From: Defluviitaleaceae bacterium
Lineage (GTDB): Bacteria; Bacillota; Clostridia; Lachnospirales; UBA5962
Direction: 5' to 3'
Assembly (NCBI GenBank): GCA_009787355.1
Contig: WRGD01000152.1
Span: forward strand, 1-64,000
DNA length: 64,000 bases
Shown here: piece by piece, positions 17,246 through 54,898 of the stretch
How positions within the stretch are numbered: position 1 is the stretch's first letter
How the letters are laid out: every line of letters starts with the position of its first letter
Notes under the pieces: generated by a model
Told to the model about the DNA's origin: nothing
Seen by the model: only the letters and a program-made list of their open reading frames with translations
The model's database searches: none
Made by a program: the position numbers and the translations under genes

Positions 17246-18136
17246 ATGGAGTTTAAATCAGGATTCGTTACAATAATAGGTAGACCAAATGTAGGTAAAT
17301 CTACACTTGTAAATTCTCTAGTTGGAGAAAAATTAACAATAACATCGAGTAAAGCACAAACAACAAGAAATCAAATTAGGTGTATAATTAATACAGAAAA
17401 TAGTCAAATAGTATTAATAGATACTCCCGGTATTGTGGATAAAGTAGAAAATAAACTCGGCAACTTTATGGATAAATATTCAAAAATTGATGTAAATAGT
17501 ATAGATATAACTCTTTTTGTTATAGAACCAGATAAAACAATAGGAAAGATGGACAAAGAAATAATAAAAAGATTGCAAGGAGATGTTTTTTTAATTATAA
17601 ATAAGATTGATAAAATAGCTAAGGAAGAAGTATTACAAGTGATAGATATTTATAAAAATACTTATCCTTTTAAAGAAATATTACCGATAAGTGCTCTTAA
17701 AAATGAAACATACAATTTAGTAGACTTAATAGAAAATTATTTACAAGATGGGCCTAAATATTTCTCGGATAATATGATAACAGACCAACCAGAAAGACAG
17801 ATAGCAGCAGAGTTTATAAGAGAAAAACTACTTAGAAATTTAGAAGAAGAAATACCTCATGGTGTAGCGGTAGAAATTTTAAAAATGAAAAAAAGAGATA
17901 ACAAAAATTTAGTAGATATAGATGCTACTATATACTGTGAACAAGATTCTCATAAAGGTATAATAATTGGAAAAAATGGTGATTTGATAAAAAAAATAGG
18001 TACAGAGGCTAGAAGAGATATTGAAAATCTTTTAGGTTCTAAAATATTTTTGCAAACAAAAGTAAAAACAAAAAAAAATTGGAGAAATAATGATATTATT
18101 TTAAAAAATTTAGGATATGCTGATAACTTGAATTAA
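17246..18136 (+). CDS. era: GTPase Era
   Basis: A 296-residue small GTPase that binds 16S rRNA and assists 30S assembly. G1 is GRPNVGKST near residue 12, G3 is DTPGIV near 60 and G4 is NKID near 119. The C-terminal KH domain carries IIIGKNGDLIKKIGTEAR near 240-257. Length is normal. The ATG at 17246 follows a short gap after ybeY. The last codons of era (AACTTGAATTAA) are also the left boundary of the sequence copied into the scar at 24153. Confidence 0.96.
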   Translation: MEFKSGFVTIIGRPNVGKSTLVNSLVGEKLTITSSKAQTTRNQIRCIINTENSQIVLIDTPGIVDKVENKLGNFMDKYSKIDVNSIDITLFVIEPDKTIGKMDKEIIKRLQGDVFLIINKIDKIAKEEVLQVIDIYKNTYPFKEILPISALKNETYNLVDLIENYLQDGPKYFSDNMITDQPERQIAAEFIREKLLRNLEEEIPHGVAVEILKMKKRDNKNLVDIDATIYCEQDSHKGIIIGKNGDLIKKIGTEARRDIENLLGSKIFLQTKVKTKKNWRNNDIILKNLGYADNLN

Positions 18137-18200
18137 TTTTGAAAAATGTTATAATTTCTTAAATGTGTTCATGAGAAACAAGAGAAGAGAGAAATAAAAA

Positions 18201-18635
18201 ATGGATAAAAGGACGGAAAGAAAACATATATTTTCTTTAGTTTTTATTATAGAATTTGAAAAGGATATAAATTTGGAAAATATTTTTTTGGGATATATCG
18301 AAAGCCTAGAAACAAAAAGTAAAGAAGAATTAAATAACGGTAATAAAAGTTTTGTTTTTTCTTCTTTTGAAAAAATTTTTTTGAATTTAAAAAAAATAGA
18401 CAAAATAATATCAGAAAATTTAATAAAAAGAGAAATAGAACGTCTAAACAAAGTAGACTTAGCAATTCTTAGATTTGCTGTATATGAAATAATTTTAACA
18501 GATACACCTAAAAAAATTATAATAAACGAAGCAATAGAAATTGCAAAAGAGTTTTCTTCTGAAAATAGTCCAAAATTTATAAATGGAGTATTAGCAACTT
18601 TTGTTAATAGTGGACAGAATAATAAGGAATTATAA
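18201..18635 (+). CDS. nusB: Transcription antitermination protein NusB
   Basis: A 144-residue all-helical NusB that forms part of the rRNA antitermination complex with NusE (S10). Family features are the N-terminal R-T-x-R-K/E-x-x-F stretch (RTERKHIFSLVFIIEF) and the C-terminal LAILRFAVYEI, IIINEAIEIAKEFSSENSPKFINGVL blocks. The ATG follows a weak purine-rich site. The stop overlaps the xseA start by one base. A decayed second copy of its leader and first codons is found at 24153-24258. Confidence 0.93.
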   Translation: MDKRTERKHIFSLVFIIEFEKDINLENIFLGYIESLETKSKEELNNGNKSFVFSSFEKIFLNLKKIDKIISENLIKREIERLNKVDLAILRFAVYEIILTDTPKKIIINEAIEIAKEFSSENSPKFINGVLATFVNSGQNNKEL

Positions 18636-19813
18636 TGAAAAAAATATTATCTGTGTATCAAGTTAATAATTATATAAAAAGAATATTTGAAGAAGATTTT
18701 ATTTTAAGCGAAGTTTTTATACAGGGTGAAATATCAAATTTAAAACATAATAAGCATTTTTATTTCACATTGAAAGGTGATAATTCTGCTATAAATTGTG
18801 TTATGTTTAATAATTATACAAAAAGTTTAGATATAGAATTAAAAGACGGAATGAGTATAATTGTTTTTGGTCGTATTTCTGTTTACGAAAAAACAGGAAA
18901 TTATCAAATTTATGTAGAATTAATACAACCTATAGGTGTTGGTATAATTCATTTTTCTTTTTTGCAACTAAAAGAAAAATTAGAAAAAGAAGGACTTTTT
19001 GATTTAATATATAAAAAAGATATACCTAAAGACTCTAAAAATATAGCATTTATAACATCTTTAACTGGTGCTGTTGTATATGATATGATACGAATTTTAA
19101 AAAGACGAAATCCTAGTATAAATATATTAATTGTACCTGTTCAGGTTCAAGGGAAAGATGCCCCAATATCTATTATAAATGCTCTTAAAACTTTAGAAGA
19201 ATACAGAAATGTAGATTTTGCTATTTTAGCACGTGGTGGTGGCTCTATTGAAGATTTGTGGGCATTTAACGATGAAAATGTTGCACGTGCTATTTTTAAT
19301 TTTAAAATACCCATAATATCTGCAATTGGACATGAAACAGATTTTACAATTGCAGATTTTGTAAGTGATTTAAGAGCATCCACACCATCTTCTGCTATAG
19401 AAGTTTCTGTTTCCCAAAAAGAAGATATACTAAAAACTATTAAAATCAAAATCTCAAGATTAAATAATATTATATCTATGAAGATTAATATGGAAAAAAG
19501 ATTATTTTTAAATTTTTTAGAAAGGTGTAAGGCTTTAAATCCTGAACATAAAGTTTTAAGAGAAAAAAAATATGTATCAGAAATAGTAAAAAATATAGAT
19601 ACAATTATAAATAACGATTTTGAAAAACATAAAAACAAACTAGCGTTTAATATAAGTATTTTGAAAGCAATCTCACCATTAAATATTTTGTCCAAAGGCT
19701 ATACAATCGTATATAAAGATGAAAAAATAGTTAAAAGTGCTGAAAATTTAAAAAAAGATGATGAAATAATAATAAAATTTGAAAATGAAGAGAAACATGC
19801 AAAAATAATTTAA
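18635..19813 (+). CDS. xseA: Exodeoxyribonuclease VII large subunit
   Basis: A 392-residue large subunit of exonuclease VII, which degrades single-stranded DNA to oligonucleotides with XseB. An N-terminal OB fold (VFIQGEISNLKHNKHFYFTL) is near residues 25-45. The core has AFITSLTGAVVYDMI, LARGGGSIEDLWAFND and ISAIGHETDFTIADFVSDLR, then ASTPSSAIE, all strongly conserved. The coiled C-terminal part is shorter than in E. coli, as is usual in Clostridia. It starts on the last base of the nusB stop. Confidence 0.95.
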   Translation: MKKILSVYQVNNYIKRIFEEDFILSEVFIQGEISNLKHNKHFYFTLKGDNSAINCVMFNNYTKSLDIELKDGMSIIVFGRISVYEKTGNYQIYVELIQPIGVGIIHFSFLQLKEKLEKEGLFDLIYKKDIPKDSKNIAFITSLTGAVVYDMIRILKRRNPSINILIVPVQVQGKDAPISIINALKTLEEYRNVDFAILARGGGSIEDLWAFNDENVARAIFNFKIPIISAIGHETDFTIADFVSDLRASTPSSAIEVSVSQKEDILKTIKIKISRLNNIISMKINMEKRLFLNFLERCKALNPEHKVLREKKYVSEIVKNIDTIINNDFEKHKNKLAFNISILKAISPLNILSKGYTIVYKDEKIVKSAENLKKDDEIIIKFENEEKHAKII

Positions 19814-19833
19814 ACATATAAAGGTCGTATAAA

Positions 19834-20061
19834 ATGCCAAAAAAAATAAATTATGAACAATTTATAGAAAAATTAGAAGAAATAGTTAATAAATTAGAAA
19901 ATCCAGATACATCTCTTGAAGATTCTATAAACTTGTATAAAGAGGGAATAGACATAGCAAAATTTTGTAATGAAAAATTAGATAGTATGGAAGGTGAAAT
20001 TAAAATTCTAAAAAAATCTGTAGATGATATTTTTACAAAAGAGGACTGGGTAGAAAATTAG
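19834..20061 (+). CDS. xseB: Exodeoxyribonuclease VII small subunit
   Basis: A 75-residue small helical subunit. The family signature is FIEKLEEIVNKLENPDTSLEDSINLYKEG-like; here FIEKLEEIVNKLENPD then SLEDSINLYKEGI. Several XseB chains wrap the long XseA helices. It lies 20 bases after xseA with AAGG upstream, and its stop overlaps the GTG start of ispA by one base. Confidence 0.94.
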   Translation: MPKKINYEQFIEKLEEIVNKLENPDTSLEDSINLYKEGIDIAKFCNEKLDSMEGEIKILKKSVDDIFTKEDWVEN

Positions 20062-20912
20062 TGGAAAAAAATTTTGAAAAATACAAAAACATAATCGATA
20101 AAAATTTAGAAAAATATGTAAATATAAAATCAGATAAACTCAAAGATTCTGTTATATACTCTTTAACTAGTGAAGGCAAAAGAATTAGAGGAATTTTACT
20201 TTTACTTGTGTTTGAGAGTATAACGAACAGTAGTGATTATAAAAATATTTTGCCATTTGCCGTATCGCTTGAAATGATTCATACTTATTCTTTAATACAT
20301 GATGATTTGCCGAGCATGGACAACGATGAATATAGAAGAGGAAAATCCTCTAATCATATTGTTTTTGGTGAAGATATAGCTATTTTGGCAGGAGATGCAC
20401 TTTTAAATTTGGCATATGAAAATATGGTAAATCACATATATAAATACCCTGCAAAACAAAATATAAAAGCTATGAGAATAATATCGAAAGCAGCAGGGCT
20501 TATGGTATCTGGTCAAGCACTCGACATTACACATAATACTTTAAATGTAGATGGAAAAATTCTTTTTGACATACAAAAATATAAGACAGCATATCTAATA
20601 CATTCAGCGTTATATACTGGTGCTATTCTTGCCACTAAAAACAAAAAAATCTTATCTGACTTTTATACCGCAGGGTTTTATATAGGTCTTTCTTTTCAAA
20701 TAAAAGATGATTATAATGATTATTTAGAGTATAAAAAATCTAGTAAAAAAACAAGTGATATAATAAACGACAAGGCAACTTATGTTTCTATTTTTGGCGA
20801 AAATAAAGCAAAGGAAGATATACAAATTTTGAAATCTAAAATTTTGATTATTTTTAACAAATATAATTTTAAAAATAATAATTTGAGTGATTTTGTTGAA
20901 TGGTTATTTTAG
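20061..20912 (+). CDS. ispA: Farnesyl/geranyl diphosphate synthase (polyprenyl synthetase)
   Basis: A 283-residue trans-prenyltransferase that condenses isopentenyl diphosphate with allylic diphosphates. The first aspartate-rich motif is DDLPSMDNDEYRRGKSSNH near residue 80. The second is FQIKDDYNDYLE near 212. GKRIRG near 40 binds substrate. Length is typical. The start is GTG, coupled to xseB. dxs, often next in other clostridia, is absent. Its 3' end (20889-20927, including bases past the stop) is repeated exactly at 24271-24309, which is evidence of a past rearrangement. Confidence 0.93.
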   Translation: MEKNFEKYKNIIDKNLEKYVNIKSDKLKDSVIYSLTSEGKRIRGILLLLVFESITNSSDYKNILPFAVSLEMIHTYSLIHDDLPSMDNDEYRRGKSSNHIVFGEDIAILAGDALLNLAYENMVNHIYKYPAKQNIKAMRIISKAAGLMVSGQALDITHNTLNVDGKILFDIQKYKTAYLIHSALYTGAILATKNKKILSDFYTAGFYIGLSFQIKDDYNDYLEYKKSSKKTSDIINDKATYVSIFGENKAKEDIQILKSKILIIFNKYNFKNNNLSDFVEWLF

Positions 20913-20927
20913 TTAAGGATATAATAA
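20889..20927 (+). repeat. Left copy of 39-bp direct repeat (end of ispA)
   Basis: Thirty-nine bases covering the last codons of ispA, its stop and 15 bases beyond are identical to 24271-24309. The right copy supplies the ribosome site of the gene at 24314. The sequence after ispA was therefore once joined directly to that gene. Confidence 0.9.
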
Positions 20928-20931
20928 CACA

Positions 20932-20971
20932 AAAACTCAACACCGTATTATATCTTAGGTGTTGGGTTTTG
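20932..20971. terminator. Bidirectional terminator between ispA and the peptide island
   Basis: Stem ACTCAACACC (about 20935-20944) pairs with GGTGTTGGGT (20958-20967) and is flanked by A and T runs on both sides. It can end transcription from both the nusB-ispA operon and the oppositely oriented island. Confidence 0.8.
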
Positions 20972-20989
20972 AATTAAGTTTTGCAAGTA

Positions 20990-21358
20990 TTAGAATATTG
21001 GAGTTACTTTTATAATTCCATATCCCGGGTCTGATACTATAATTTTATTTTTGGTTATGCTGTGTATCACAATATAATGTTCTAATCTATTATCTACAAC
21101 AACATGAGCAATGCAGGGTAATGGAAAATGTAAATAAAAAGCCTCTTTAGTAACTTTTACAGCTTTTACTACAAATCCAAAAAATTCTAATGTTTTGATT
21201 ATATCTTTTGCAGTTGTGCCTTCTTTACTTATATTTGTTATTTCTCGTATTTTTGAAATATCAATATTTATACCATTTTGTTTTAATACTGTTGATATAC
21301 AAGCTATGGCACAGTCATTTTCATTTTCTTGTAATACGGTATGATATTTTTTAAACAT
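20990..21358 (-). CDS. Free-standing C39 double-glycine leader peptidase
   Basis: A 122-residue papain-fold C39 peptidase domain with no transporter part. QENENDCAIAC near residues 10-20 carries the catalytic cysteine (family form QxxxxDCGxAC, with Ala in place of Gly). HYIVIHSI near 94 carries the histidine, and VSDPGYG near 110 the aspartate. In most bacteriocin exporters this domain is the N-terminus of the ABC protein and cuts after a GG leader. Here it is separate. It stops slightly earlier than the usual 130-150 residues. It is the last gene of the island, one base after a permease gene, in a row with a GG-leader peptide 2.4 kb upstream. Confidence 0.85.
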   Translation of the reverse strand: MFKKYHTVLQENENDCAIACISTVLKQNGINIDISKIREITNISKEGTTAKDIIKTLEFFGFVVKAVKVTKEAFYLHFPLPCIAHVVVDNRLEHYIVIHSITKNKIIVSDPGYGIIKVTPIF

Positions 21359-21359
21359 A

Positions 21360-22073
21360 TTAAAAGTCCCTTTTGTTATAAATTTTCAATGATAAGAATA
21401 ATGATATTAAAAAAGGTATAGTTAAAAATAAAACAAATAATAATATTGTAATTATTATTTGTGTAACAAAGCTACTAACATTTAAAAATAACAATTCTAC
21501 AAAATTTATTAAACTATATAAAGGTACAGTAGAAATATCGTTTTCATTTGTAGGTCTAAGGGCGAAAATAACAATAAGCATTACAACAGAAGGTATTAAA
21601 GAATTTAATAACATTAACTTTTTAAATCCAAATTTAAAAAATAATGGAAATTCAATAATACTTATAATCATAGAAATAAAAGAAGCAAACATTGTTACAG
21701 CTACTATTTCTACTATACTTACACCATGGTTTAAAATATTTCTTACAATTACAGCAAACAAAAAGTATGTAATACTAGCTAAAATTGAAAATATAATTAA
21801 AAAAATATATCTACCAAAAACAATAGTTTTTCTTTCTATACAAAGCATTGCATATAACTTATCAAGTCCATTTTTATCACCAGCAGAAAAAGGAAGAGAA
21901 GCAAGTCTAGAACCTGTTGTAACAACTCCTATAGAAGCTCCCAAAATCCCCGCAAAATTATAACCCATTGCTAAAAACACCATAAAAACAATACCACCAA
22001 CAGCTACCACTCTTGGACTTATAGCAAAAAAATCTGACTTTATAAATCTAATTATCTTTTTCGTATTTGACAT
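21360..22073 (-). CDS. ABC-2-type permease, second island copy
   Basis: A 237-residue membrane protein with about six hydrophobic segments. It is a clear paralogue of the island's other permease (22953-23666): both begin with a short helix carrying IKSDF or IHSDF, then GGxxFxxxxxxxGY, and share KNGLDKLYAMLCIERKT or KNGLDRLYAMLCIERKT near residues 68-85. This fits ABC exporters built from one ATPase and two different permeases. Substrate cannot be read from sequence, but the neighbouring C39 peptidase and GG peptide suggest peptide export or immunity. Confidence 0.8.
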   Translation of the reverse strand: MSNTKKIIRFIKSDFFAISPRVVAVGGIVFMVFLAMGYNFAGILGASIGVVTTGSRLASLPFSAGDKNGLDKLYAMLCIERKTIVFGRYIFLIIFSILASITYFLFAVIVRNILNHGVSIVEIVAVTMFASFISMIISIIEFPLFFKFGFKKLMLLNSLIPSVVMLIVIFALRPTNENDISTVPLYSLINFVELLFLNVSSFVTQIIITILLFVLFLTIPFLISLFLSLKIYNKRDF

Positions 22074-22074
22074 A

Positions 22075-22923
22075 TTAAATCACCGTATTTTGTTCATTGT
22101 TAAAGCAAATTGCTAAATCACTCAAATTTGCGTTTGAAATATCTAGACCATTTGCAATTTTACTTAAATTTTCTTTGTGTATAATAGCTTTAAATCTATC
22201 CGAATATCGTTTAGAACCTATAATAATATTTAAAAAGTCGCCTGTTATTTTGTCTAAACTACCTTCAATATTCAAATAATTTGTAAGTAGTGATTCTTTA
22301 GTATCTGATATAACTATACTACCATTTGCAATATATGTAACATCATTCGCTATTTTTTCTATATCTTCTACTATATGTGTAGAAAACAATACACTACGTC
22401 CTCCTATTTTCACATAATCTAATAGTAAATTACATATCTCATCTCTTGCGGTTATATCTAACCCACTTGTTGGTTCGTCTAGTATTAATATTTTTGCATT
22501 GTGAGAGAGAGCAACAGCAAGCATTAGTTTTACACTCATACCACGGCTTAATTCTTTTACTTTTTTACTCTTGTCTATGCTAAATTGTTTTAATAAATTA
22601 TCAAAACGAGAGGCATCCCAATTTTCATGGTAAGGTTTTACAAATTTCTCAACTCCTGATACTTTCCAACGTTCTTCATATACTACAAAATCCATAACAG
22701 AACCTACATCAGAATTGATGTATTTTGTATCATTTCCAAAAAATTTTATAGTACCAGAATCGTATTTACTTATACCAAGTATAGATTTTAAAAGTGTTGT
22801 TTTTCCAGCACCATTTGGTCCTACAAAACCCATTATAGTATTTTTAGGAATTGTCATATTTATATTTTTTATACTGAAATTTTTGTATGATTTTGTTAAA
22901 TTAATTATTTCTAATGTGTTCAT
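22075..22923 (-). CDS. ABC transporter ATP-binding protein of the island
   Basis: A 282-residue ATPase. Walker A is GPNGAGKTT near residue 34, the signature is LSRGMSVKLMLAVAL near 128, Walker B is ILILDEPTSGLD near 150, and the switch histidine is STHIVEDIEKIA near 187. After the ATPase core there is a C-terminal extension of roughly 60 residues, as in YtrB/BcrA-like subunits. It lies between the two related permease genes, one base from the downstream one, so a heteromeric exporter is likely. Confidence 0.88.
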   Translation of the reverse strand: MNTLEIINLTKSYKNFSIKNINMTIPKNTIMGFVGPNGAGKTTLLKSILGISKYDSGTIKFFGNDTKYINSDVGSVMDFVVYEERWKVSGVEKFVKPYHENWDASRFDNLLKQFSIDKSKKVKELSRGMSVKLMLAVALSHNAKILILDEPTSGLDITARDEICNLLLDYVKIGGRSVLFSTHIVEDIEKIANDVTYIANGSIVISDTKESLLTNYLNIEGSLDKITGDFLNIIIGSKRYSDRFKAIIHKENLSKIANGLDISNANLSDLAICFNNEQNTVI

Positions 22924-22952
22924 AAAATTTCCTTTATAAAATTTTTAAATTT

Positions 22953-23666
22953 TCAAAAATCTTTATTGTTGTAAATTTTTAAGGATAATAGAAAAGATAA
23001 AATTAATGAAATAAGCCAGAACGTAATAAATATTAAGTCTGGTAATAAAATATTTATAAACAGTGTATTTTGATTATTTGTATATTCCAAAAAGTTTACA
23101 AATCTATATATAGGTGTTGGAGAGCTATCATCTATAGACCTAATAAAAAGCATTATAAATAGAACTAATAATGATGGTACTGCAGAAGTATATCGCTTTA
23201 GCTTATATCCTCCAAATTTAAAGCTTAATGGAAAGTGTAGTATATTTATTGTCGTTGATGCAAAAAAGCATACAAAGGTTATTATTGTTATTTCAATTGT
23301 ACTTACATCATAATTAAAAAGTTTTTGCATTATTGTAGCGAATAAAAAATATATTATGCTAGATATTAAAGACAATAAAACAAAAAAGGTATATCTACCT
23401 AAAACAACAGTTTTGCGTTCGATACATAACATTGCGTATAATCTATCTAAACCGTTTTTACCTTCTCCAGCTTCAAAAGCAATATTAGGTAAAGCAGCTC
23501 CTATATTTATTATGCCCATAGATACACCTAAAACGCCTCCAAAATAATATCCAAAAATGCTTACAATCATAACAAAAGCAAAAATACCACCTTTAAAAAA
23601 TAATTTTGGCATTACAGCTAAAAAATCAGAGTGTATAAATTTAATTAAATCTCGGCTATTTGTCAT
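22953..23666 (-). CDS. ABC-2-type permease, first island copy
   Basis: A 237-residue, six-segment integral membrane protein, same length as and homologous to the permease at 21360-22073. The conserved cytosolic block GLDRLYAMLCIERKTVVLGRY lies near residues 71-91 (here described by its key residues Y-A-M-L-C and E-R-K-T). It is the first transporter gene after the GG-leader peptide, separated from it by a 13-bp hairpin. A role in exporting the peptide or protecting the producer is inferred from context only. Confidence 0.8.
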   Translation of the reverse strand: MTNSRDLIKFIHSDFLAVMPKLFFKGGIFAFVMIVSIFGYYFGGVLGVSMGIINIGAALPNIAFEAGEGKNGLDRLYAMLCIERKTVVLGRYTFFVLLSLISSIIYFLFATIMQKLFNYDVSTIEITIITFVCFFASTTINILHFPLSFKFGGYKLKRYTSAVPSLLVLFIMLFIRSIDDSSPTPIYRFVNFLEYTNNQNTLFINILLPDLIFITFWLISLILSFLLSLKIYNNKDF

Positions 23667-23740
23667 TTTTAAACCACTTTTCTAATTTATTATCAAAATA
23701 TTTAATTACAAGTAAATGATAAAAAATATTTCAAAAGACA

Positions 23741-23780
23741 TTACCTTAAATACCTGATATATTTATAGTATTTAAGGTAA
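23741..23780 (-). terminator. Hairpin between peptide gene and transporter genes
   Basis: Perfect 13-bp arms TTACCTTAAATAC (23741-23753) and GTATTTAAGGTAA (23768-23780). On the minus strand only weak T runs follow. It lies 25 bases after the peptide stop, so it probably gives much peptide mRNA and limited read-through into the ABC genes, or protects the 3' end of the short transcript. Confidence 0.6.
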
Positions 23781-23805
23781 CATTTTTAGATTAAATTACG
23801 AAAAA

Positions 23806-23937
23806 CTACATAAGATTCCAAACGGTATAAAGAGCGTATGCAGCACAAACAGCTATGTCGAACCAACCACCTGTAATTTCTTCAGTTTCTGCTTCTGTCA
23901 ACTCTGTAAAACCGTCTAAATTTAATATATCTTCCAT
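23806..23937 (-). CDS. Double-glycine leader peptide, putative bacteriocin or signal precursor
   Basis: A 43-residue ORF. The leader ends LTEAETEEITGG, matching the double-glycine consensus with Leu at -12, Glu at -8, Ile at -4 and Gly-Gly at -2/-1. Predicted cleavage leaves the 19-residue hydrophobic product WFDIAVCAAYALYTVWNLM, with one cysteine and several aromatics. AAGGA lies about eight bases before the ATG. It has its own promoter at 24056-24084 and lies upstream, on the same strand, of an ABC exporter and a C39 peptidase, the enzyme class that cuts such leaders. I do not recognise the core peptide from any described bacteriocin. It could equally be a signalling peptide. Confidence 0.85.
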   Translation of the reverse strand: MEDILNLDGFTELTEAETEEITGGWFDIAVCAAYALYTVWNLM

Positions 23938-24055
23938 ATTTATTATCCTTGTCTGTATAAGATAAATTTTTTATTGCCAAATAACATTTACTATGTAATT
24001 TAGATTTAAAGTTTCGTTTTTCTTTCTTCATAAGTAAATATTAGTTGATAATTAC

Positions 24056-24084
24056 TTTATAACAAATAAAATTGCATTTTTCAA
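24056..24084 (-). promoter_or_regulatory. Sigma-A promoter of the GG-peptide gene
   Basis: On the minus strand, TTGAAA (24079-24084) and TATAAA (24056-24061) are separated by exactly 17 bases. The predicted transcript has an untranslated leader of roughly 110 bases before the peptide ATG, long enough for extra control. Confidence 0.6.
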
Positions 24085-24124
24085 TACAGTTTAGCGGTTT
24101 TTATGCAGGTAATTTCTGTTAATT

Positions 24125-24143
24125 TGCGTTGTACCTCAACGCA
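24125..24143. terminator. Short hairpin at the right edge of the island
   Basis: TGCGTTG (24125-24131) pairs with CAACGCA (24137-24143), followed by TATATTTT. It lies between the island promoter and the nusB scar and may be a weak terminator. Confidence 0.4.
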
Positions 24144-24152
24144 TATATTTTG

Positions 24153-24258
24153 ACTTGAATTAATTCTGAAAAATGTTATAATTTCTTAAATATGTTCACG
24201 AGAAACAATAATAAAAAGTGAATAAAATAACATAAAGAAAACATATATTTTCTTTAGT
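24153..24258 (+). pseudogene. Decayed 5' end of a second nusB copy, with leader
   Basis: This stretch aligns with 18126-18240, from the last codons of era through the nusB leader to the first codons of nusB. Shared blocks include ACTTGAATTAATT, GAAAAATGTTATAATTTC and AAAGAAAACATATATTTTC. The copy has substitutions and small deletions. The start is now GTG and a TAA appears five codons later. It breaks off near 24258, and the 3' end of ispA follows directly. Confidence 0.85.
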
Positions 24259-24309
24259 TTTAATTTAAATGATTTTGTTGAATGGTTATTTTAGTTAAGG
24301 ATATAATAA
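24259..24309 (+). repeat. Right copy of ispA 3' end (scar)
   Basis: Bases 24271-24309 are identical to 20889-20927 and the preceding dozen bases are similar to ispA. Together with the nusB fragment just before it, this is what remains of a duplicated nusB-xseA-xseB-ispA block whose middle was lost. It now provides AAGGA for the gene at 24314. Confidence 0.88.
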
Positions 24310-24313
24310 ATAA

Positions 24314-24745
24314 ATGAATGGAATTTTAAAAAATGATATATTAATTTCTGCTATAATAGCTTGGTTTATAGCACAACTTATAAAACTTATTATAAGTATA
24401 TTACATCACAAAAAATTTGATATGAGTCTTCTTGTTAGTTCTGGTGGTATGCCAAGTTCTCACACTTCACTTACTGTATCTATGGCAACAAAAATAGGAA
24501 TAATAGAGGGTTTTAGCTCTACTTTTTTTGCTATTGCTGCTGTTTTTTGTATGGTTGTTATGTACGATGCAATGGGAGTAAGAAGGCAAGCAGGAAAACA
24601 CGCACAAATACTTAATATTCTTATACTTAATAATCTTGCACAAAATATTAAAGATTTTGGAAAATTAAAAGAACTTGTTGGTCATAGACCTATAGAAGTT
24701 TTTTTTGGTATGGTCTTAGGCATTACAGTTGCTTTTTTATTTTGA
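24314..24745 (+). CDS. Divergent PAP2 family membrane protein
   Basis: A 143-residue membrane protein of the divergent PAP2 (DUF212, YuiD-like) family. GGMPSSHTSLT near residue 45 is the conserved block that corresponds to the PAP2 phosphatase SxxxSxH site. VMYDAMGVRRQAGKHA near 82-97 and LVGHRPIEVFFGMVLG near 117-132 are family hallmarks. Three or four membrane helices are visible. The substrate of this family is not established. It was once directly behind ispA, since its ribosome site is the copied post-ispA sequence. Confidence 0.85.
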   Translation: MNGILKNDILISAIIAWFIAQLIKLIISILHHKKFDMSLLVSSGGMPSSHTSLTVSMATKIGIIEGFSSTFFAIAAVFCMVVMYDAMGVRRQAGKHAQILNILILNNLAQNIKDFGKLKELVGHRPIEVFFGMVLGITVAFLF

Positions 24746-24769
24746 TTGTTATGTTAGGGGATTGTAATA

Positions 24770-25495
24770 ATGGAACGTTTTGATGTATTATTATCAAAAG
24801 AAATAAATATTTCTCGTGAAAAAGCAAAAGAGTTAATAATTTCGGGAAGAGTAAATTTAGATGGAACAGTATTAAAAAAGCCAAGTAAACTTTTAAATAG
24901 TCTTGGAAAAGTGTATATATCAGAATTAAATACGAAATATGTTAGTCGTGGTGGATACAAATTAGAGCAAGCTATAAAGAATTTCAAAATAGATGTAAAA
25001 GATAAAATATGTTTAGATATAGGTGCCAGTACAGGAGGTTTTACAGATTGTTTACTTAAACATAATGCAAAGTTAGTTTATGGAATAGATGTTGGTACTA
25101 ATCAGTTAAATAAGGAACTTTTGAATAATAAAAGGGTTATTAGCATGGAAAATACTAATATAAGAAATTTAGATATAGTATCGAAGTTACCTAAATTTGA
25201 TATTGTAGTAGTAGATGTTTCTTTTATATCTATATCTTTAGTTCTACCTATTATTTATAAACTATTGCTTCAAAATGGAATATGTATATCGCTTATAAAA
25301 CCACAGTTTGAAGTTGGTAAAAAATTTTTAAACAAAAAAGGTGTTGTAAATGACAAAAAAGCAATTGATACTTGTTTGAAAAATATATATATCATTGCTA
25401 GTTCACTAAATTTTAATGTTAGTATACCGATAGAATCAAGTCTTCTTGGCAAAAATGGAAACAAAGAATATTTTTATAAATTAGAAAAAAGGTAA
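24770..25495 (+). CDS. tlyA: TlyA family rRNA methyltransferase / hemolysin-like protein
   Basis: A 241-residue protein with an N-terminal S4 RNA-binding domain (RFDVLLSKEINISREKAKEL, residues 3-22) and an FtsJ-like Rossmann methyltransferase domain (CLDIGASTGGFTDCLLKHNA near 83, the SAM site). DVSFIS near 148 and SLIKPQFEVGK near 180 match TlyA. In Mycobacterium TlyA 2'-O-methylates 16S and 23S rRNA; the same activity is inferred. The clostridial order tlyA-nadK-recN is kept, though argR, often between nadK and recN, is missing. Confidence 0.92.
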   Translation: MERFDVLLSKEINISREKAKELIISGRVNLDGTVLKKPSKLLNSLGKVYISELNTKYVSRGGYKLEQAIKNFKIDVKDKICLDIGASTGGFTDCLLKHNAKLVYGIDVGTNQLNKELLNNKRVISMENTNIRNLDIVSKLPKFDIVVVDVSFISISLVLPIIYKLLLQNGICISLIKPQFEVGKKFLNKKGVVNDKKAIDTCLKNIYIIASSLNFNVSIPIESSLLGKNGNKEYFYKLEKR

Positions 25496-25499
25496 CAAA

Positions 25500-26315
25500 A
25501 TGTTTAACATTGGGATATTTCCGAACACAACTAGAGATATAAATTTAGAATATACAAGAAATTTAATATCTTGGCTTATTATTAATAAATGTAATATTTA
25601 TGTAACAGAATGTAATCAAGATTTAGAAAATGTAGTATTCACAACTATAGATATTATTTGTAAAAAATGCGATTTTGTTATTTTTTTGGGTGGAGATGGT
25701 ACAATACTTCAAAAAGCCCCCATATGTGCAAAGTTTAATATACCTCTTATCGGTATAAATTTGGGTTCTGTTGGATATCTTACAGATGTCGATAAAGAAG
25801 ATGGTACTTTAGCTATAGGTAAAGTTTTACAAAAAAATTATAGAATAGAAAAAAGGATGTTGATAGAAACAAAGGTAAAAGGAGAGACTAAAACAGCTCT
25901 AAATGATATATGTATAACAAAAAAGGACCAAACAAAATTAATTACACTAACAATAAAAGTTAATGGAGAATACATAGATACTTATAGAGGAGATGGTATT
26001 ATAGTTAGCACTCCAACGGGTTCTACTGCCTATAATTTAGCAGCAGGTGGACCAATTGTAAAGCCAGATATTTGTGCCATTATAGTAACTCCTATTTGTC
26101 CTTATAAAATATATTCAAGACCTTTGGTATTATCTGGTGATGATATTGTAACAATATCATCTAATGATTACTTTTGTACTTCTGTTTCTGTAGATGGATA
26201 TATGGATAATTTGACAGAAGAAATAACAATAAAAAAATCGATAAATAAAGCCAGTATAATACGAACACATAAACAAAATTTTTACGACGTATTAAGAAAA
26301 AAGTTTTTCATCTAG
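25500..26315 (+). CDS. nadK: NAD kinase
   Basis: A 271-residue ATP-NAD kinase making NADP. The GGDG motif is FLGGDGTILQKA near residue 63. NLGSVGYLTDV near 90 and DGIIVSTPTGSTAYNLAAGGPIV near 165 (key residues T-P-T-G-S-T-A-Y) are the NAD-binding signatures. Length fits. The ATG lies four bases after tlyA, with AAAGG inside the tlyA end. recN follows 11 bases later. Confidence 0.95.
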   Translation: MFNIGIFPNTTRDINLEYTRNLISWLIINKCNIYVTECNQDLENVVFTTIDIICKKCDFVIFLGGDGTILQKAPICAKFNIPLIGINLGSVGYLTDVDKEDGTLAIGKVLQKNYRIEKRMLIETKVKGETKTALNDICITKKDQTKLITLTIKVNGEYIDTYRGDGIIVSTPTGSTAYNLAAGGPIVKPDICAIIVTPICPYKIYSRPLVLSGDDIVTISSNDYFCTSVSVDGYMDNLTEEITIKKSINKASIIRTHKQNFYDVLRKKFFI

Positions 26316-26326
26316 GAGTATCGATT

Positions 26327-27985
26327 ATGATAGAAGAATTATCAATTAAAAATATGGCACTGATAAAAGAAGTTATTATTAATTTTTCAAAAAATCTTAA
26401 TATACTTTCTGGAGAAACAGGCTCAGGTAAATCTATAATAATAGATAGTATAAATTTTGTATTTGGAGGTAAAATTGGAGGAGATTTTATTAGGTCTGGT
26501 GAGGATTTTGCTATTGTTAGTATTTTGATAAGTATTTCTTCTTTTTCTAGTATAGAATTTTTAAAAGAAAATGGTATACCTATAGAAACAGATAACAAAA
26601 TTTTGATAACAAGAAAAATATGGATAACCGGAAAGTCTAGTATAAAAATAAATGGAAAATCTGTTACAATATCTTTACTTAGAGAATTTTCATCTTATTT
26701 TATAGATATATATGGTCAATTTGAACATAATTATTTATTGAATGAAAAGGAACATATAAATTTACTAGATAAATTTTGTAATTCTTCTCTTGAACAACTT
26801 AAAATAGGACTTTCTGATTCAATTGAAAATTATAAAGATATAAACACAAAAATTTTGAAAATGGAAAATGAAACAAAGAATATAGATACGTTGGCAGAAG
26901 AAATAGAAGAATTACAAACTTTAGATTTAAAAGATAATGAAGAAGATGAAATATTAAAAAAAATTAAATATCTTAACAATTTTAGAGAACTTTCGGAAGG
27001 TATAAATAAATCAATATCTATGATATATCCGGAGGGTGGAGCTATTGATAAAATTGCAAAAGCAACTAAATTTTTAAAAAATATATCTAATATAATGGAA
27101 AATACAGAAGTAATAGAAAATTTAGAAAATATATTATTACAATTACAAGATATAAATCATGTTTTAAAACATACTGTTACAGACTTTGACCAAAAAAAGC
27201 TAAATGCTTTAGAAGATAGGCTTGCTACTATCCATACAGTAAAAAGAAAATATAAAAAAGAAATAAAAGATGTAATATTATACTTTGAAAATTTAAAAAC
27301 TTTGCTAGATGAGATAGAAAATAAAGCTTTTATAATAGAGAATTTGAAAAATGAACGAAAATTTTTTAAAGAAAAAATTGTATATTTTTGTGCAGAAATA
27401 AGCAAATTAAGATGGGAAGCTAAAATATTTTTAGAATCTAAAATAATAGAAAGTCTGAAAGATTTGGGTATGAAAAATGTAGATTTTCAAATCAGCATAG
27501 AAAAAAAAGAAACATTTAGTATAAATGGAAATGATATAATAAAATTTATGATAACAGCAAATCTTGGTGAACCTTTAAAACCATTATCTAAAATAGCATC
27601 TGGAGGAGAGATGAGTCGTATAATGTTATCTTTAAAAATAGTTTTGTCAAGTGGAAACAATGTAGAAACATTTATATTTGACGAAATAGATACAGGTGTA
27701 AGTGGAAGAACAGCACAGAGAGTTGCAGATAAATTATATAAATTTTCTAAAAACAAACAAATAATATGTATTACACATTTACCACAAATAGCATCTATGG
27801 CAGACAGACACTTTTTGATAGAAAAAGTAAATTATAATAATGAAACAATAACAAATATAAATAAGCTAAAAAATAATGAAATAACAGAAGAAATAGCAAG
27901 ACTTATAGGTGGTACAAAAATAACAGAAAACACAATAAAAGCTGCAAAAGAAATGAAAGAGTTGGCTACTTTATGGAAAGTATAA
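26327..27985 (+). CDS. recN: DNA repair protein RecN
   Basis: A 552-residue SMC-like ATPase in double-strand-break repair. Walker A is LSGETGSGKSIIID near residue 28. A long coiled-coil middle covers about 150-360. The signature IASGGEMSRIMLSLKIVLS lies near 423, Walker B FIFDEIDTGVSG near 445 and the H-loop CITHLPQIAS near 482. Length is typical. Same operon as nadK. Confidence 0.95.
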   Translation: MIEELSIKNMALIKEVIINFSKNLNILSGETGSGKSIIIDSINFVFGGKIGGDFIRSGEDFAIVSILISISSFSSIEFLKENGIPIETDNKILITRKIWITGKSSIKINGKSVTISLLREFSSYFIDIYGQFEHNYLLNEKEHINLLDKFCNSSLEQLKIGLSDSIENYKDINTKILKMENETKNIDTLAEEIEELQTLDLKDNEEDEILKKIKYLNNFRELSEGINKSISMIYPEGGAIDKIAKATKFLKNISNIMENTEVIENLENILLQLQDINHVLKHTVTDFDQKKLNALEDRLATIHTVKRKYKKEIKDVILYFENLKTLLDEIENKAFIIENLKNERKFFKEKIVYFCAEISKLRWEAKIFLESKIIESLKDLGMKNVDFQISIEKKETFSINGNDIIKFMITANLGEPLKPLSKIASGGEMSRIMLSLKIVLSSGNNVETFIFDEIDTGVSGRTAQRVADKLYKFSKNKQIICITHLPQIASMADRHFLIEKVNYNNETITNINKLKNNEITEEIARLIGGTKITENTIKAAKEMKELATLWKV

Positions 27986-49530: not shown

Positions 49531-50790
49531 TTATCTAAAAGTTGCACGTCTTCTTTCTATTAAGTTTAATGTTTCGTCTATAAAGTCTTGTGTAGCTACA
49601 CTTGGGTTTGGTAAAGACCTACCTGAAAAGTGGTCGTATAGTAAAGAAAGAGAAGTTACGTTGTAGTCGTCCATTATCGTTTGTTGCCACACATCGCTTT
49701 CTACGTATCTGTTAAGTAGCATAGTCGCTAAAGAACCGATATAGTAACCTTCTAAAACTAGCCCTATTGTTAATCGATTTTCATAATCAATATAGGTCAT
49801 CCAATAAGCTAACGCTTCGTCTAACCCTTCCCTAGTTTGTACTTCGTTTGGGAAAAGAATGTTTAATGCTGCAACAAAGTCAAAGTACGTAGCTGTACCT
49901 TCTGATCTGTCTTGGTCTGTAGAGATTAGGTGTTGCTGCGGAAAATTTTCTCTAAAGGCTCTATACGTTGCTAAGGCTGTTAAAGTATAGTCTTCGTTGT
50001 CTCTATTAACAACTGCGAGTCTAAGGTCTCTCATAAGTAAGCGGCGTGCTACTCTTGCGTCTGTTTCTTCTAAAAATTCCTCTCTTTCTGCGTTAACTCT
50101 TATTAAAAATTCTGCAAATTCTTCTTCACTAACTAGCATTTCAAATGTTTCAAAGTCAAACACGGTTCTACTAGCGTTTGCCCATTTTTGACTTTGTTCT
50201 AATACGTGGAAACCTTCGTGAACACCTAGCCTAAAAACCTCTGTAGGAGCAAAGCTTGGGTGTAGCACTTCCCAGTTGTTTAAGTTGTTTACGTCTATTG
50301 GTGTAAAATAACCTCTACCGTCTCCAAGTTGGTGATACATGTCAATGCGTTCTTCATCTAAGCCACGTGCTATAGCATCTTGTAAAGAAATTTCGCTTAC
50401 TGTACCGTCTGAGTAAACAAGCCACAACCTGTCTGGCTCTGAAACTTCCTTAACAATAGCGTACATGTCTAAAACAGAGTTGTTTAGCCAAATTGTCGGT
50501 GCTATTTCGTTGTATGAACTAATTAGCCAGCCTAGAAAATTTAAATGCTCTTCAAGTGTATAAGGCACGTCAAGAAAGTCCATACTAAAACGGGAAAGTT
50601 CAGGTTGTGTTACTTCGTTTGTTACTGGTTCTTGAACTGGTACTTCTTGAACCAATGCTGGTGGTTGTGTTATTTCTTGCGTTGGTTGTGATTCTTGTGC
50701 TGGTGGCGCGTCTGAATATAGCCCGCACGCTGAAAGTGTTAATAAAGCTGCTGTACCAAGTCCTAAAGTTGTTAAATTTTTTATTTTCAT
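49531..50790 (-). CDS. HExxH lipoprotein, putative metallopeptidase (copy 2)
   Basis: A 419-residue lipoprotein: signal with lipobox LSAC (Cys22), then a Pro/Gln/Glu-rich stalk to about residue 62. The globular part has GVHEGFHVLEQ near 190-200, an HExxH zinc site, and RSEGTATYFDF about 100 residues later, whose Glu would be the third ligand of a gluzincin-like enzyme. I do not recognise a named family. Tandem paralogue of 50812-52056, with near-identical stretches such as FAEFL/FAEQL, EETDARVARRLL, NRDNEDYTLTALATYR. Zinc protease activity is inferred from motif order only. Confidence 0.75.
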   Translation of the reverse strand: MKIKNLTTLGLGTAALLTLSACGLYSDAPPAQESQPTQEITQPPALVQEVPVQEPVTNEVTQPELSRFSMDFLDVPYTLEEHLNFLGWLISSYNEIAPTIWLNNSVLDMYAIVKEVSEPDRLWLVYSDGTVSEISLQDAIARGLDEERIDMYHQLGDGRGYFTPIDVNNLNNWEVLHPSFAPTEVFRLGVHEGFHVLEQSQKWANASRTVFDFETFEMLVSEEEFAEFLIRVNAEREEFLEETDARVARRLLMRDLRLAVVNRDNEDYTLTALATYRAFRENFPQQHLISTDQDRSEGTATYFDFVAALNILFPNEVQTREGLDEALAYWMTYIDYENRLTIGLVLEGYYIGSLATMLLNRYVESDVWQQTIMDDYNVTSLSLLYDHFSGRSLPNPSVATQDFIDETLNLIERRRATFR

Positions 50791-50811
50791 TTTTTGTTCC
50801 TCTTTTCATAT

Positions 50812-52056
50812 TTAATTATTTGCGATAGGTTCTAAAAATCGCCTTTCTTCATCACTTAATGATTCATAAGAATATACAAGCTCTGCACGTCTTCTTTCTA
50901 TTAAATCTAATGTTTCGTCTATAAACTCTTGTGTAGCTACGCTTGGGTCTGGTAGTGAAGTTCCTGAAAAATGGTCATATAGCAGAGAAAGAGGCGTTAC
51001 ATTATAGTCATCCATTATCATTTGTTGCCATATATCGTTTTCTACATATCTATTAAGTAACATTGCTGATAAATAGCCAACATGATAACTTTCTAAAATT
51101 AACCCCACCGTTACCAAGCTTTCATACTCAATTAGATTCATAAAATAAGCAAATGCTTCGTCTAGCCCTTCCCTAGTTTGTACTTCGTCTAGGAAAAGTG
51201 TGTGTAAGATTGCAACAAAGTCAAAGTACGTTGCTGTACCTTCTGCTCTGTCGTGTTCTGTAGAGATTAAATGTTGGCGTGGAAAGTTTTCTCTAAAGTC
51301 TCTATACGTTGCTAAGGCTGTTAAAGTATAGTCTTCGTTATCTCTATTAACGACTGCAAGTCTTAAATCTCTTATAAGCAAGCGACGTGCTACCCTTGCG
51401 TCTGTTTCTTCTAAAAACTCTTCTCTTTCAGCGTTAAGCCTTAATAACTGTTCTGCGAATTCTTCTTCACTAACTAATATTTCAAATGTTTCAGGATCTT
51501 GCACAGCATCCATTGCATTTGCCCATTTACTTTGTTCTACTGCATGAAAAGCTTCATGTACAGTCATTTTAAAAGGGGATAACGGTGCAAAGCGAGGATT
51601 ACTAAAATCTCCATAGTTTAGGTTTTCTACGTTCAAGCGATTAAAATGACCTCTACGGTCTTTTTCAAAAAGATGCCAATCAAAAATCATAGATTCTTCA
51701 TCTAAACCAAGTTCTAAGGCATATTCTAAAGTAATTTCACTGATTGAACCTTCAGTGTTAATAAGCCAAAGTTGGTCATTACCATATTCTTGCACAACAG
51801 TATAAATATCTAAAACAGAACTATTAAGCCAAAGTGTTGGTGCTATTTCGTTAAATAAACGAATGTTTTTTGCTAAAAATGCTATGTGTTCTTCAATCGT
51901 ATATGGAACGTCAAGAAAGTCCATACTAAAGCGAGAAAGTTCAGGTTGTGTTATTTCTTGCGTTGGTTGCGGTTCTTCTGCATATAGCCCACAAGCTGAA
52001 AGTGTTAACAAAACTGCTGAACCAACGCCTAAGATTGTTAAATTTTTATTTTTCAT
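50812..52056 (-). CDS. HExxH lipoprotein, putative metallopeptidase (copy 1)
   Basis: A 414-residue lipoprotein with signal MKNKNLTILGVGSAVLLTLS and lipobox LSAC (Cys22). The Pro-rich stalk is much shorter than in copy 2. HEAFHAVEQ near 167 gives a strict HExxH, and RAEGTATYFDF follows about 100 residues later. Start is ATG 52056, eight bases after a GGGGA site; the TTG at 52072-52074 would put that site inside the gene. Six extra codons or so extend the C-terminus. Same operon as copy 2, which starts 22 bases further on. Confidence 0.75.
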   Translation of the reverse strand: MKNKNLTILGVGSAVLLTLSACGLYAEEPQPTQEITQPELSRFSMDFLDVPYTIEEHIAFLAKNIRLFNEIAPTLWLNSSVLDIYTVVQEYGNDQLWLINTEGSISEITLEYALELGLDEESMIFDWHLFEKDRRGHFNRLNVENLNYGDFSNPRFAPLSPFKMTVHEAFHAVEQSKWANAMDAVQDPETFEILVSEEEFAEQLLRLNAEREEFLEETDARVARRLLIRDLRLAVVNRDNEDYTLTALATYRDFRENFPRQHLISTEHDRAEGTATYFDFVAILHTLFLDEVQTREGLDEAFAYFMNLIEYESLVTVGLILESYHVGYLSAMLLNRYVENDIWQQMIMDDYNVTPLSLLYDHFSGTSLPDPSVATQEFIDETLDLIERRRAELVYSYESLSDEERRFLEPIANN

Positions 52057-52132
52057 TTTTTGTTTCCCCGCCAATAGTATACATAAATTTTTGCTGTATA
52101 ACTAATTTTTCTAAATATTAGATTTTATGCCA

Positions 52133-54613
52133 TTACTCAAAAGTTACAAAGCCCCAAAGTCCGTTGTCCTTTTGTACCGCTACTCTGTTTTCTAACGAGT
52201 TTAATATTCTTCTAAATGGCATTTCGGCTGGTATTATTATATTTCCTTGTATATCTACCAAACCCCAGTAACCGCCTCTTATTTCGCTTACGTTGTTACC
52301 TGTTTGCACCCACTCAGTTCCACCACGGTTTACAATACCAAGCCCTTCAGCCGAAAACCAAGAATTTATACTGTCATACTCTACTTTTAATATTACGTTT
52401 CCGTGTCTATCAACCATGCCCCATTTTGCTATATGTGGTTCCCAAATATTTGACGGTCTATCACCAACAGCTACTACAAAAGTATCTCTACTCCAGTCGT
52501 CTGTATTAGTTTGATTTCCACGCTCAACTACGAATACAGCAGCTATAGCGTCATATTCAAACGGAAGTATTACCTCATATCTACTTATAATGCCGTACTT
52601 TTGACCGATAGCTTCATATCCTCCCCAATCCGAAGTGTGCCATTCACCATACATAGTTGCTATAAAAATATCTTCATAAGTCTTCCATATATTATTAAAA
52701 GTCGGTTCTACTAATACTTCACCTGTTTTTGGATTTATTAATCCTGCACGTGTATTTTCTGCTGTTCCTGTTATAACAACTGCATATTCGTCTGAAACCC
52801 TTGTTATACTTTGGTAAATAACGGGTACTATATATTCTCCTGTGCTAATGTCTAAAATACCAAAAAGCATAGTTCGGTCGTAAGTACTGATTCCCCAGTC
52901 TCCAATACCTACAATAGCAATGTTTTCATCTATGACTTGAATAACATTATAAATAAAAGGTATTTTTTCTGTACCGTCTACATAAATAATTCCACTGAAA
53001 TTATCTTTGTCTATAGCTACTAAGAATATATTACCGCTTGTAGTTTTAAAGCTATTATGCGTAGATATATTTCTGAATTTGGGTTCTATAACAATATTGC
53101 CTTGTATATCCATAATACCAAACATATCATTGCCATCCGCTATTAAAATATAGTTTTCACCTATACCCATTGGGTGTTGAATTCTATATACAAACTCTGT
53201 AATAGGATTTCCGCTTGTGTCTAAAAAGCTCCAAATAGGTTCTCTCCAATCACCACTATCTAGTCTTGCAGGTATTAAACCATTTGTCCATGAACCAAAA
53301 GCGTTAAAATAAGGTGTTATTAACTCGCCAGTTTTGAAATTTATTAAAGAGTGTCTATTGCCATCCCAAAAATCCCCTATCCAGACCTGTGCTATGTTAT
53401 GTTCTAAGCTAAAGTTTTGTATACCATGGTATATACCACTTGGAATAATAATTTCGTTAGTTCTAAAATTTTTAAGGCTAATTGTTTCGTCTTCATGAAC
53501 TAATGTTACAAAGTCAGTATTTTGTACAAAAGATATTCTTCTATATTCAAAAGGTATATGAACGTAGCCCGTTATATCTATAGCACCTACATAGCCTTCT
53601 ATATTTCGTACAATAATAAGTTCGTTATTGTTGGACTTATAAAAGGTATCGTCCTCCAAAGAATGTAAATTTGAGTATATACTTAAAAACTGTGGTTCTA
53701 ATATATAATTACCATATATATCTATCAAGCCCCAAAGTGTATCGTCTGTATTTGTTGCAAAGTTCCAGCCCCCTGTTCTTACAAAAGCAACACCGTTCAA
53801 AAAATTTGTTACAGCTGTATATTTTGGTTGTATTATCAACTGCCAATTTGTACCTTGTTGCTGCAAAGGTCTTATGATTTGTTGTGTTACATTATTTACT
53901 TGCATTGTATTAAAACCGCCACCGTCATGACTAACTATAGTGAAATTTGTTGTTGCTATAGTTACATTTTGAAAAACTTTTTCATCATATTCATTAATTG
54001 TGTAGTTGAAATTTTCAAGCAAGGGAATTAAGTCGTTTACGTTAGATATACCGAACCATAACGAACGGCTGTCGTTTACGAACTTTGGGAAATTAACATA
54101 AGCCCAAGTATTAGGTGTTGGTAAAAAGCGTAACTCTGGAAGAGGGTTGCCCGCAATATTGTCTTCTTGTAACAAAATAAGCTCACCTTCTATATCATAA
54201 CCTAGATTAGAAAAAGAGGCAACACCCCAGCCTAGTCGGTAATAGTTATTAGAAAGCATAACTAAGCTAGTTTCAAAATTTTCAAGTGTGTGAATATGAC
54301 GGAAAATGTCCCCGCTACGAATTGCTTGCGGCTCATCTTGCCCTGTTGTGTTTGTTACATACATAAAGTCTACAGTTACAATCCTAGTTTCATCATATTC
54401 TACGTAAAAGTCTGTTACTATACCGTCCCAAAAAGGATAAGTGTATACTGTTTCTTCATAATTATTTGATATTTCGTAAGTTGTCCAGTTTTCATTTCCT
54501 CCTGTTTGTGTTGCTGGGCTTGCAGTTTCTTGAATGTTAATTATATAAATTGCAACTACAGTAATTAAAAAAACTAAAATACAACCTAGTAATAAAATTT
54601 TTCTATGCTTCAT
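52133..54613 (-). CDS. Membrane-anchored WG-repeat protein
   Basis: An 826-residue protein with an N-terminal membrane anchor (ILLLGCILVFLITVVAIYII, residues 6-25) and then a long extracellular chain of WG-type repeats. Examples are DDTLWGLIDIYGNYILEPQF, MFGIMDIQGNIVIEPKF, YGIISRYEVILPFEYDAI, KWGMVDRHGNVILKVEYD and YWGLVDIQGNIIIPAEMPF, spaced about 45-80 residues apart. WG repeats form beta-rich surface proteins of unknown binding role. It is more AT-rich than the hydrolase genes on either side. A truncated copy of its 5' end lies directly upstream. Confidence 0.85.
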   Translation of the reverse strand: MKHRKILLLGCILVFLITVVAIYIINIQETASPATQTGGNENWTTYEISNNYEETVYTYPFWDGIVTDFYVEYDETRIVTVDFMYVTNTTGQDEPQAIRSGDIFRHIHTLENFETSLVMLSNNYYRLGWGVASFSNLGYDIEGELILLQEDNIAGNPLPELRFLPTPNTWAYVNFPKFVNDSRSLWFGISNVNDLIPLLENFNYTINEYDEKVFQNVTIATTNFTIVSHDGGGFNTMQVNNVTQQIIRPLQQQGTNWQLIIQPKYTAVTNFLNGVAFVRTGGWNFATNTDDTLWGLIDIYGNYILEPQFLSIYSNLHSLEDDTFYKSNNNELIIVRNIEGYVGAIDITGYVHIPFEYRRISFVQNTDFVTLVHEDETISLKNFRTNEIIIPSGIYHGIQNFSLEHNIAQVWIGDFWDGNRHSLINFKTGELITPYFNAFGSWTNGLIPARLDSGDWREPIWSFLDTSGNPITEFVYRIQHPMGIGENYILIADGNDMFGIMDIQGNIVIEPKFRNISTHNSFKTTSGNIFLVAIDKDNFSGIIYVDGTEKIPFIYNVIQVIDENIAIVGIGDWGISTYDRTMLFGILDISTGEYIVPVIYQSITRVSDEYAVVITGTAENTRAGLINPKTGEVLVEPTFNNIWKTYEDIFIATMYGEWHTSDWGGYEAIGQKYGIISRYEVILPFEYDAIAAVFVVERGNQTNTDDWSRDTFVVAVGDRPSNIWEPHIAKWGMVDRHGNVILKVEYDSINSWFSAEGLGIVNRGGTEWVQTGNNVSEIRGGYWGLVDIQGNIIIPAEMPFRRILNSLENRVAVQKDNGLWGFVTFE

Positions 54614-54776
54614 TATTCACCTTTGAACAGGAAGTTCTGTTATTTGTGTTCCTTCTTCGCCCGCTGTCAAAATAGTTAGCAGGCAAGTTGACGTTAGTGG
54701 AACGTGCCGTAATTATATAAATTACAACTACGGCAATTAAAGCACAACCCATTAATAAAATTTTTCTGTTTTTCAT
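54603..54776 (-). pseudogene. Truncated duplicate of the WG-protein 5' end
   Basis: ATG 54776 opens MKNRKILLMGCALIAVVVIY, closely matching the first 25 codons of the WG gene (MKHRKILLLGCILVFL), also at base level. After about 30 codons the similarity ends and the frame runs out 57 codons from the start, overlapping the WG gene start. No repeat domain remains. It could still make a small membrane peptide, but a broken tandem copy is more likely. Confidence 0.55.
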
Positions 54777-54898
54777 TTTTATCTATGTTTTCACCGCACT
54801 TTTTCAAAATAATATGAATTTATAACTATTATTTTTTATTTTGAATGCCTCTAAGCTGTCTGACAATTAGTTGAACTCCCATACCATTACAGCTTCTT

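Follow-up and report, generated by a model that had tools for sequence, protein, structure and literature searches.

A 157-base scar upstream of DUF212, probably the remnant of a duplicated nusB-ispA block, in a Defluviitaleaceae bacterium

In the genome of this Defluviitaleaceae bacterium, a 3.2-kb reverse-oriented gene cluster separates ispA from the DUF212 gene, and between the cluster and DUF212 lies a 157-base scar (24153-24309) that consists of two joined copies of sequences found further to the left. How did a short sequence with the beginning of one gene and the end of another come to stand at this place, and does it serve the genes that follow it? A single contig of the draft genome (2.25 Mb in 152 contigs, completeness 96.5%, contamination 0.28%) carries the window, i.e. 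the whole 64,000-nucleotide stretch of DNA that was analysed.

Two partial copies at the edge of a peptide-export cluster

To the left of the cluster, the window encodes in the forward orientation a phoH-like gene, an HD-domain gene, ybeY, era, nusB, xseA, xseB and ispA; to the right of the scar, also in the forward orientation, are DUF212 (divergent PAP2), tlyA, nadK and recN, followed by other genes. The scar, its sources and the neighbouring genes are located as follows:

18126-18248, + strand: intact source of scar part 1 (end of era, nusB promoter at 18128-18155, leader and 5' end of nusB)
18201-20912, + strand: intact block of nusB, xseA, xseB and ispA (open reading frames; homologous block in relatives)
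20879-20927, + strand: source of scar part 2 (end of ispA and 15 nt past its stop)
24153-24265, + strand: scar part 1, covering 11 nt from the end of era, the promoter and leader of nusB and its first 16 or so codons (82.9% identical to 18126-18248, E = 3.9e-31, self-BLAST of the window)
24261-24309, + strand: scar part 2, the 3' end of ispA and 15 nt past its stop, including the DUF212 ribosome site (47/49, 95.9% identical to 20879-20927, E = 2.2e-15, self-BLAST)
24314-24745, + strand: DUF212 (divergent PAP2) gene, the first of the cut-off half operon (Pfam, 1.9e-49)
24770-27985, + strand: tlyA, nadK and recN, the remainder of the cut-off half operon

The same two sources were recovered by a repeat finder and by a search of the whole genome, which returned no further copies of the scar pieces. 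The original prediction, made from the letters of the window, had recognized a copy of the era end, nusB leader and first nusB codons at 24153-24258, which is real and extends to 24265, and a perfect 39-base copy of the ispA end at 24271-24309, which is indeed exact (39/39), the match stopping at the right edge and continuing for one more base on the left. The left edge of the copy is sharp (18126/24153), 11 nt inside the end of era, and the two parts overlap at their internal junction by 5 nt, TAATT, an overlap that fits what a microhomology deletion would leave. As had also been proposed, parts of the block are duplicated around the cluster: both of its ends are present twice, in the same order and in direct orientation, with the middle missing from the right copy. 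Because the middle is missing, we infer rather than observe a former full-length second block. The nusB to ispA reading frames are intact on the left, and the right copy has neither the middle nor a start codon. The 39-mer (24271-24309) is absent from the viral contigs searched, a scan of genome contigs for strain-level comparison returned only two distant loci, and the flanks of the cluster gave only weak, chance-like matches elsewhere in their own genome.

The cluster between ispA and the scar (20990-23937) looks, from its predicted products, like a small secreted-peptide, bacteriocin-like locus, with hairpins on both sides:

20932-20970, both strands: hairpin that probably terminates transcription in both directions, between ispA and the C39 gene (-17.4 kcal/mol, z = -3.96 on the + strand; -13.1 kcal/mol, z = -2.87 on the - strand)
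20990-21358, - strand: stand-alone C39 peptidase domain of 122 aa (Pfam PF03412, 1.6e-31)
21360-22073, - strand: ABC-2 permease (ABC2_membrane_5 by Pfam; 44% identical to the second permease by pairwise comparison)
22075-22923, - strand: ABC ATPase, best NCBIfam model PmtA (1.2e-62; 211.7 bits, below the cut-off of 350)
22953-23666, - strand: ABC-2 permease (ABC2_membrane_5 by Pfam)
23806-23937, - strand: 43-aa precursor with double-glycine leader ELTEAETEEITGG and core WFDIAVCAAYALYTVWNLM (weak matches to bacteriocin/ComC leader models)
24125-24143, + strand: hairpin with U-rich tail, terminator-like, just upstream of the scar (z = -4.16)

Double-glycine leader peptide loci with C39 processing, and the Pmt exporter, are known systems, which the cluster resembles in its double-glycine leader peptide, C39 domain, PmtA-like ATPase and ABC2_membrane_5 permeases. 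It differs from them in a C39 domain that stands alone instead of being fused to an ABC transporter, in an ATPase below the PmtA cut-off, and in having a single ATPase for two permeases. The C39 domains of relatives are fused, in transporters of about 735 aa, and the cluster permeases have weak matches there (at most 36% identity), none at any of the ispA-DUF212 sites listed. Apart from C39, ABC and peptide genes, the interval 20928-24152 contains no integrase, transposase or plasmid gene. It has no tyrosine or serine integrase with att repeats, such as defines an integrase-type genomic island, and it does not have the form of a transposon or insertion sequence, there being no transposase and the flanks being the gutted block instead of a short target duplication.

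Other duplicated features occur in the window. The region from 44 to 64 kb contains several duplicated secreted-protein genes, among them two tandem, lipoprotein-like paralogues of about 420 aa (49531-52074, 76% DNA identity). The gene that begins at 54613 (- strand) has its 5' end repeated in truncated form about 170 bp upstream, at 54710-54780 (75% identical); considered as a second scar of the same kind, this short remnant was rejected, being a shortened paralogue of a 5' gene end.

Gene order in relatives

Comparison with relatives at the family and order level identifies the older arrangement. Of 43 further genomes of the order with DUF212, 36 have ispA directly upstream on the same contig and strand, mostly at a distance of 38 to 213 bases, with a single case of 486; the remaining 7 have the two matches on separate contigs or gave no ispA match. 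The nearest relative (G006) has nusB-xseA-xseB-ispA-DUF212-tlyA-nadK-recN uninterrupted. Thus, the join of ispA to DUF212 at the 39-mer is old and the cluster interrupts it, in agreement with the earlier expectation that, in genomes free of the cluster, the PAP2-like gene would follow ispA directly. Here (24314-25495) and in the nearest relative, tlyA comes next after DUF212; in most relatives some 2 kb separate the two, with room for a gene such as dxs.

The gene order is altered on the other side of the block as well. In all seven relatives inspected (G001, G002, G003, G005, G006, G012 and G047), nusB is preceded by asp23, and era is followed in G006 by recO; here, the gene after era is nusB. 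The era-nusB junction is therefore also derived, and the left edge of the duplicated block coincides with this second derived junction. The recO gene of this genome is on another contig (C121), behind a YibE/F-like gene, and no remnant of the block was seen beside it; a search of the draft genome for asp23, as the missing neighbour of nusB, gave no match, which by itself proves little. The original prediction took the scar to mark how an island entered, a view that finds no support now that the left boundary is at a second derived junction. Since era-nusB is derived, the cluster may once have separated era from nusB, with the block later duplicated past it, which would explain the same layout.

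A retained promoter sequence and a destroyed translation start

Three elements of the scar are relevant to expression of the genes that follow:

24155-24182, + strand: promoter-like site TTGAAT-16-TATAAT with TG extended -10, a copy of the nusB promoter at 18128-18155
24208-24235, + strand: destroyed nusB translation start (10 nt of the ribosome site deleted, ATG changed to GTG, stop at codon 6)
24297-24301, + strand: DUF212 ribosome site AAGGA (duplex with the anti-SD of -4.9 kcal/mol, similar to nearby genes)

The copied promoter has the layout of the sigma-70 type, for which -35 and -10 boxes 16-18 nt apart are expected, here 16; its -35 box, extended -10 box and spacing are unchanged with respect to the nusB promoter, and there is one change in the spacer. 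The + strand of the window has five sites of this strict type, versus 0.7 expected from Markov sequences matched in dinucleotide composition; of the three sites other than the nusB promoter and its copy, one is just upstream of uvrC.

Relative to its sources, the scar has 3 differences in the 56 nt of the promoter segment, 7 substitutions in 25 nt plus the 10-nt deletion over the nusB ribosome site, start and first codons, 1 difference in the 32 nt of later nusB codons, and 2 differences in the 49 nt of the ispA end. The substitutions are clustered on the nusB translation start (7/25 versus 6/137; Fisher p = 0.0008, for a 25-nt segment chosen after the alignment had been inspected), so that the earlier description of the copy as degraded is apt for the translation start, which is heavily changed, but not for the rest, where changes are few. 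The predicted duplex with the anti-SD weakens from -5.9 kcal/mol at nusB to -3.0 kcal/mol at the scar remnant, compared with the stronger DUF212 site. With the nusB ribosome site and start codon lost, the remnant is now an untranslated leader. A conserved leader structure in the scar RNA was considered and rejected, folding being no better than that of shuffled sequences (z = -1.14). The earlier claim that the gene at 24314 uses a copied ribosome site agrees with the sequence, given AAGGA at 24297-24301 and its duplex energy, but by synteny the site is native to DUF212.

The pattern of changes allows more than one reading. The cluster of changes at the nusB ribosome site could be a single complex mutation instead of the work of selection. 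A 28-nt run of dead nusB codons in the scar is likewise unchanged, and because the dead codons are in part nearly unchanged (the copies differ by about 4% apart from the translation start), the duplication is probably rather recent; for the same reason, conservation of the promoter is by itself no proof of selection, and much of it may be youth. With only about 13 substitutions in 162 aligned bases, the unchanged promoter boxes alone are not significant. Read-through from the first promoter would be expected to be stopped by the hairpin at 20932-20970 together with the opposite-strand cluster, and we infer that the copied nusB promoter may be active and kept by selection.

A second promoter-like site, TTGAAT-18-TATAAT at 24278-24307, is inside the 39-mer and thus in both copies, and it could drive DUF212 in place of the copied nusB promoter. 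The scar would then be inert, with DUF212 transcribed from this site or elsewhere, a reading to which the dead nusB codons, partly as conserved as the promoter, lend some weight. A transcript started from 24278-24307, however, would be almost leaderless and without AAGGA, and the copied nusB promoter offers an extended -10 box and normal spacing, so an inert scar appears doubtful.

Histories of the split operon and their meaning

The sequence comparisons taken together indicate that the 157 bases are probably the remnant of a second promoter-nusB-xseA-xseB-ispA block, gutted by asymmetric loss and serving as a promoter relay for DUF212-tlyA-nadK-recN. Duplication would have placed the block, in direct orientation, on either side of the reverse-oriented peptide-export cluster, so that a full-length second copy would once have been present; the left copy would then have stayed intact and the right copy would have lost about 2.6 kb, from about codon 16 of nusB to the last 12 or so codons of ispA. 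The old operon nusB-xseA-xseB-ispA-DUF212-tlyA-nadK-recN would thereby have been cut in two, a split that would have taken the promoter from DUF212-tlyA-nadK-recN had the second copy of the block not supplied one. The right remnant would have retained the copied nusB promoter together with the native DUF212 ribosome site, which are the two elements required by the downstream half.

The history behind this explanation is plausibly, though by no means assuredly, one of duplication and asymmetric loss (SNAP, or tandem duplication-loss), in which a pre-state era-cluster-nusB..ispA-DUF212 underwent tandem duplication of cluster and block (or gained a copy of the block on the left), and loss of the first cluster and the second block caused the two to swap places. 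Duplication and deletion suffice for such a history, with no exotic circle. The homology of Era to that of the nearest relative stops at LGY, 5 to 6 nt before the start of the copy, although Era C-terminal tails differ in a few residues in any case. In such a pre-state, era and the reverse-oriented C39 gene would naturally be set apart by a two-way terminator, and the nusB promoter would be preceded by a hairpin. The cost is in the number of steps, which is greater than for integration, and in the first copy of the cluster, which left no trace: no second cluster remnant was found in the genome. Campbell-type integration of a circular molecule, in which direct repeats of host DNA come to flank the insert, would be shorter. 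A circle with the block and the cluster would have integrated into an existing era-block-DUF212 arrangement through one crossover within the block; deletion of the middle of the second copy would have followed, giving exactly the present layout from one step and that deletion. Homologous DNA in direct orientation on both sides of the cluster is what the two have in common, but unlike a Campbell integrant, this locus has no plasmid or integration gene (nor a transposase), and its second copy is almost gone. Furthermore, an unexplained circle bearing chromosomal housekeeping genes is required, and the era-nusB junction must exist first, which, that junction being derived, adds an earlier event. 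No replicon or mobility genes are present in the cluster, though they may have been lost later. The circular molecule of the original prediction is unsupported and this route is rather unlikely; we lean towards duplication and loss.

There are two further accounts. In one, the second copy was never full length: template-switching repair at the insertion of the cluster could have taken 113 nt from the nusB leader and 49 nt from the end of ispA directly as filler, a single event with which the TAATT overlap agrees as microhomology; it is an unlikely one, as the order, the orientation and both outer ends match those of a whole gutted block and would have to do so by coincidence. An assembly artefact joining two strains or loci comes to mind for a draft genome in so many contigs, but is very improbable given copies that differ by 4 to 17%, a longest exact repeat of about 40 nt, the low contamination, and the expected halves of the operon on both flanks.

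Duplication with asymmetric loss, the preferred history, has been modelled. The SNAP model consists of duplication followed by asymmetric gene loss (Brandis and Hughes 2020, PMC7055797); the completed process is stated to leave no model-specific feature, and pseudogenes with active copies are suggested as the intermediates to be sought. The scar is an object of this type, a pseudogene with a matching active copy. Genes inserted into operon clusters have likewise been explained by segmental duplication and asymmetric loss (PMC8046335). The locus resembles these cases in the direct duplication of a chromosomal block, the inactivation of one copy, the altered order and the separation of an operon by inserted genes. 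Unlike SNAP, it retains a short remnant of the lost copy, holding a promoter and a ribosome site; moreover, its block is only 2.8 kb, and the dosage selection that is part of SNAP is here hypothetical. Remnants of tandem duplication and random loss are well known in mitochondrial genomes (e.g. PMC5745709), where non-coding remnants of duplicated genes also mark the rearrangement, but the present case differs in being a bacterial operon with a cluster between the copies and regulatory pieces retained. A literature search for operon splits that retain a promoter found no precedent directly on point. Remnants of duplicate genes at points of rearrangement are already known, and the scar is a clear bacterial case in which the regulatory pieces were kept.

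It would go considerably further, and is more speculative than likely, to regard the scar as a readable intermediate of gene-order change in which selection trimmed the copy to promoter and ribosome site, actively removing the translation start, and to take such promoter-relay remnants for a general, searchable signature of a process believed to leave none. Should comparison with related strains settle the order of events, the scar would be a tangible bacterial fossil of duplication with asymmetric loss and would supply a pattern, a copy of a promoter and leader fused to a copy of a gene end, for which whole genomes could be scanned. The locus shows how a conserved housekeeping operon could break without silencing of its downstream genes, by deletion of a redundant copy save for its regulatory pieces.
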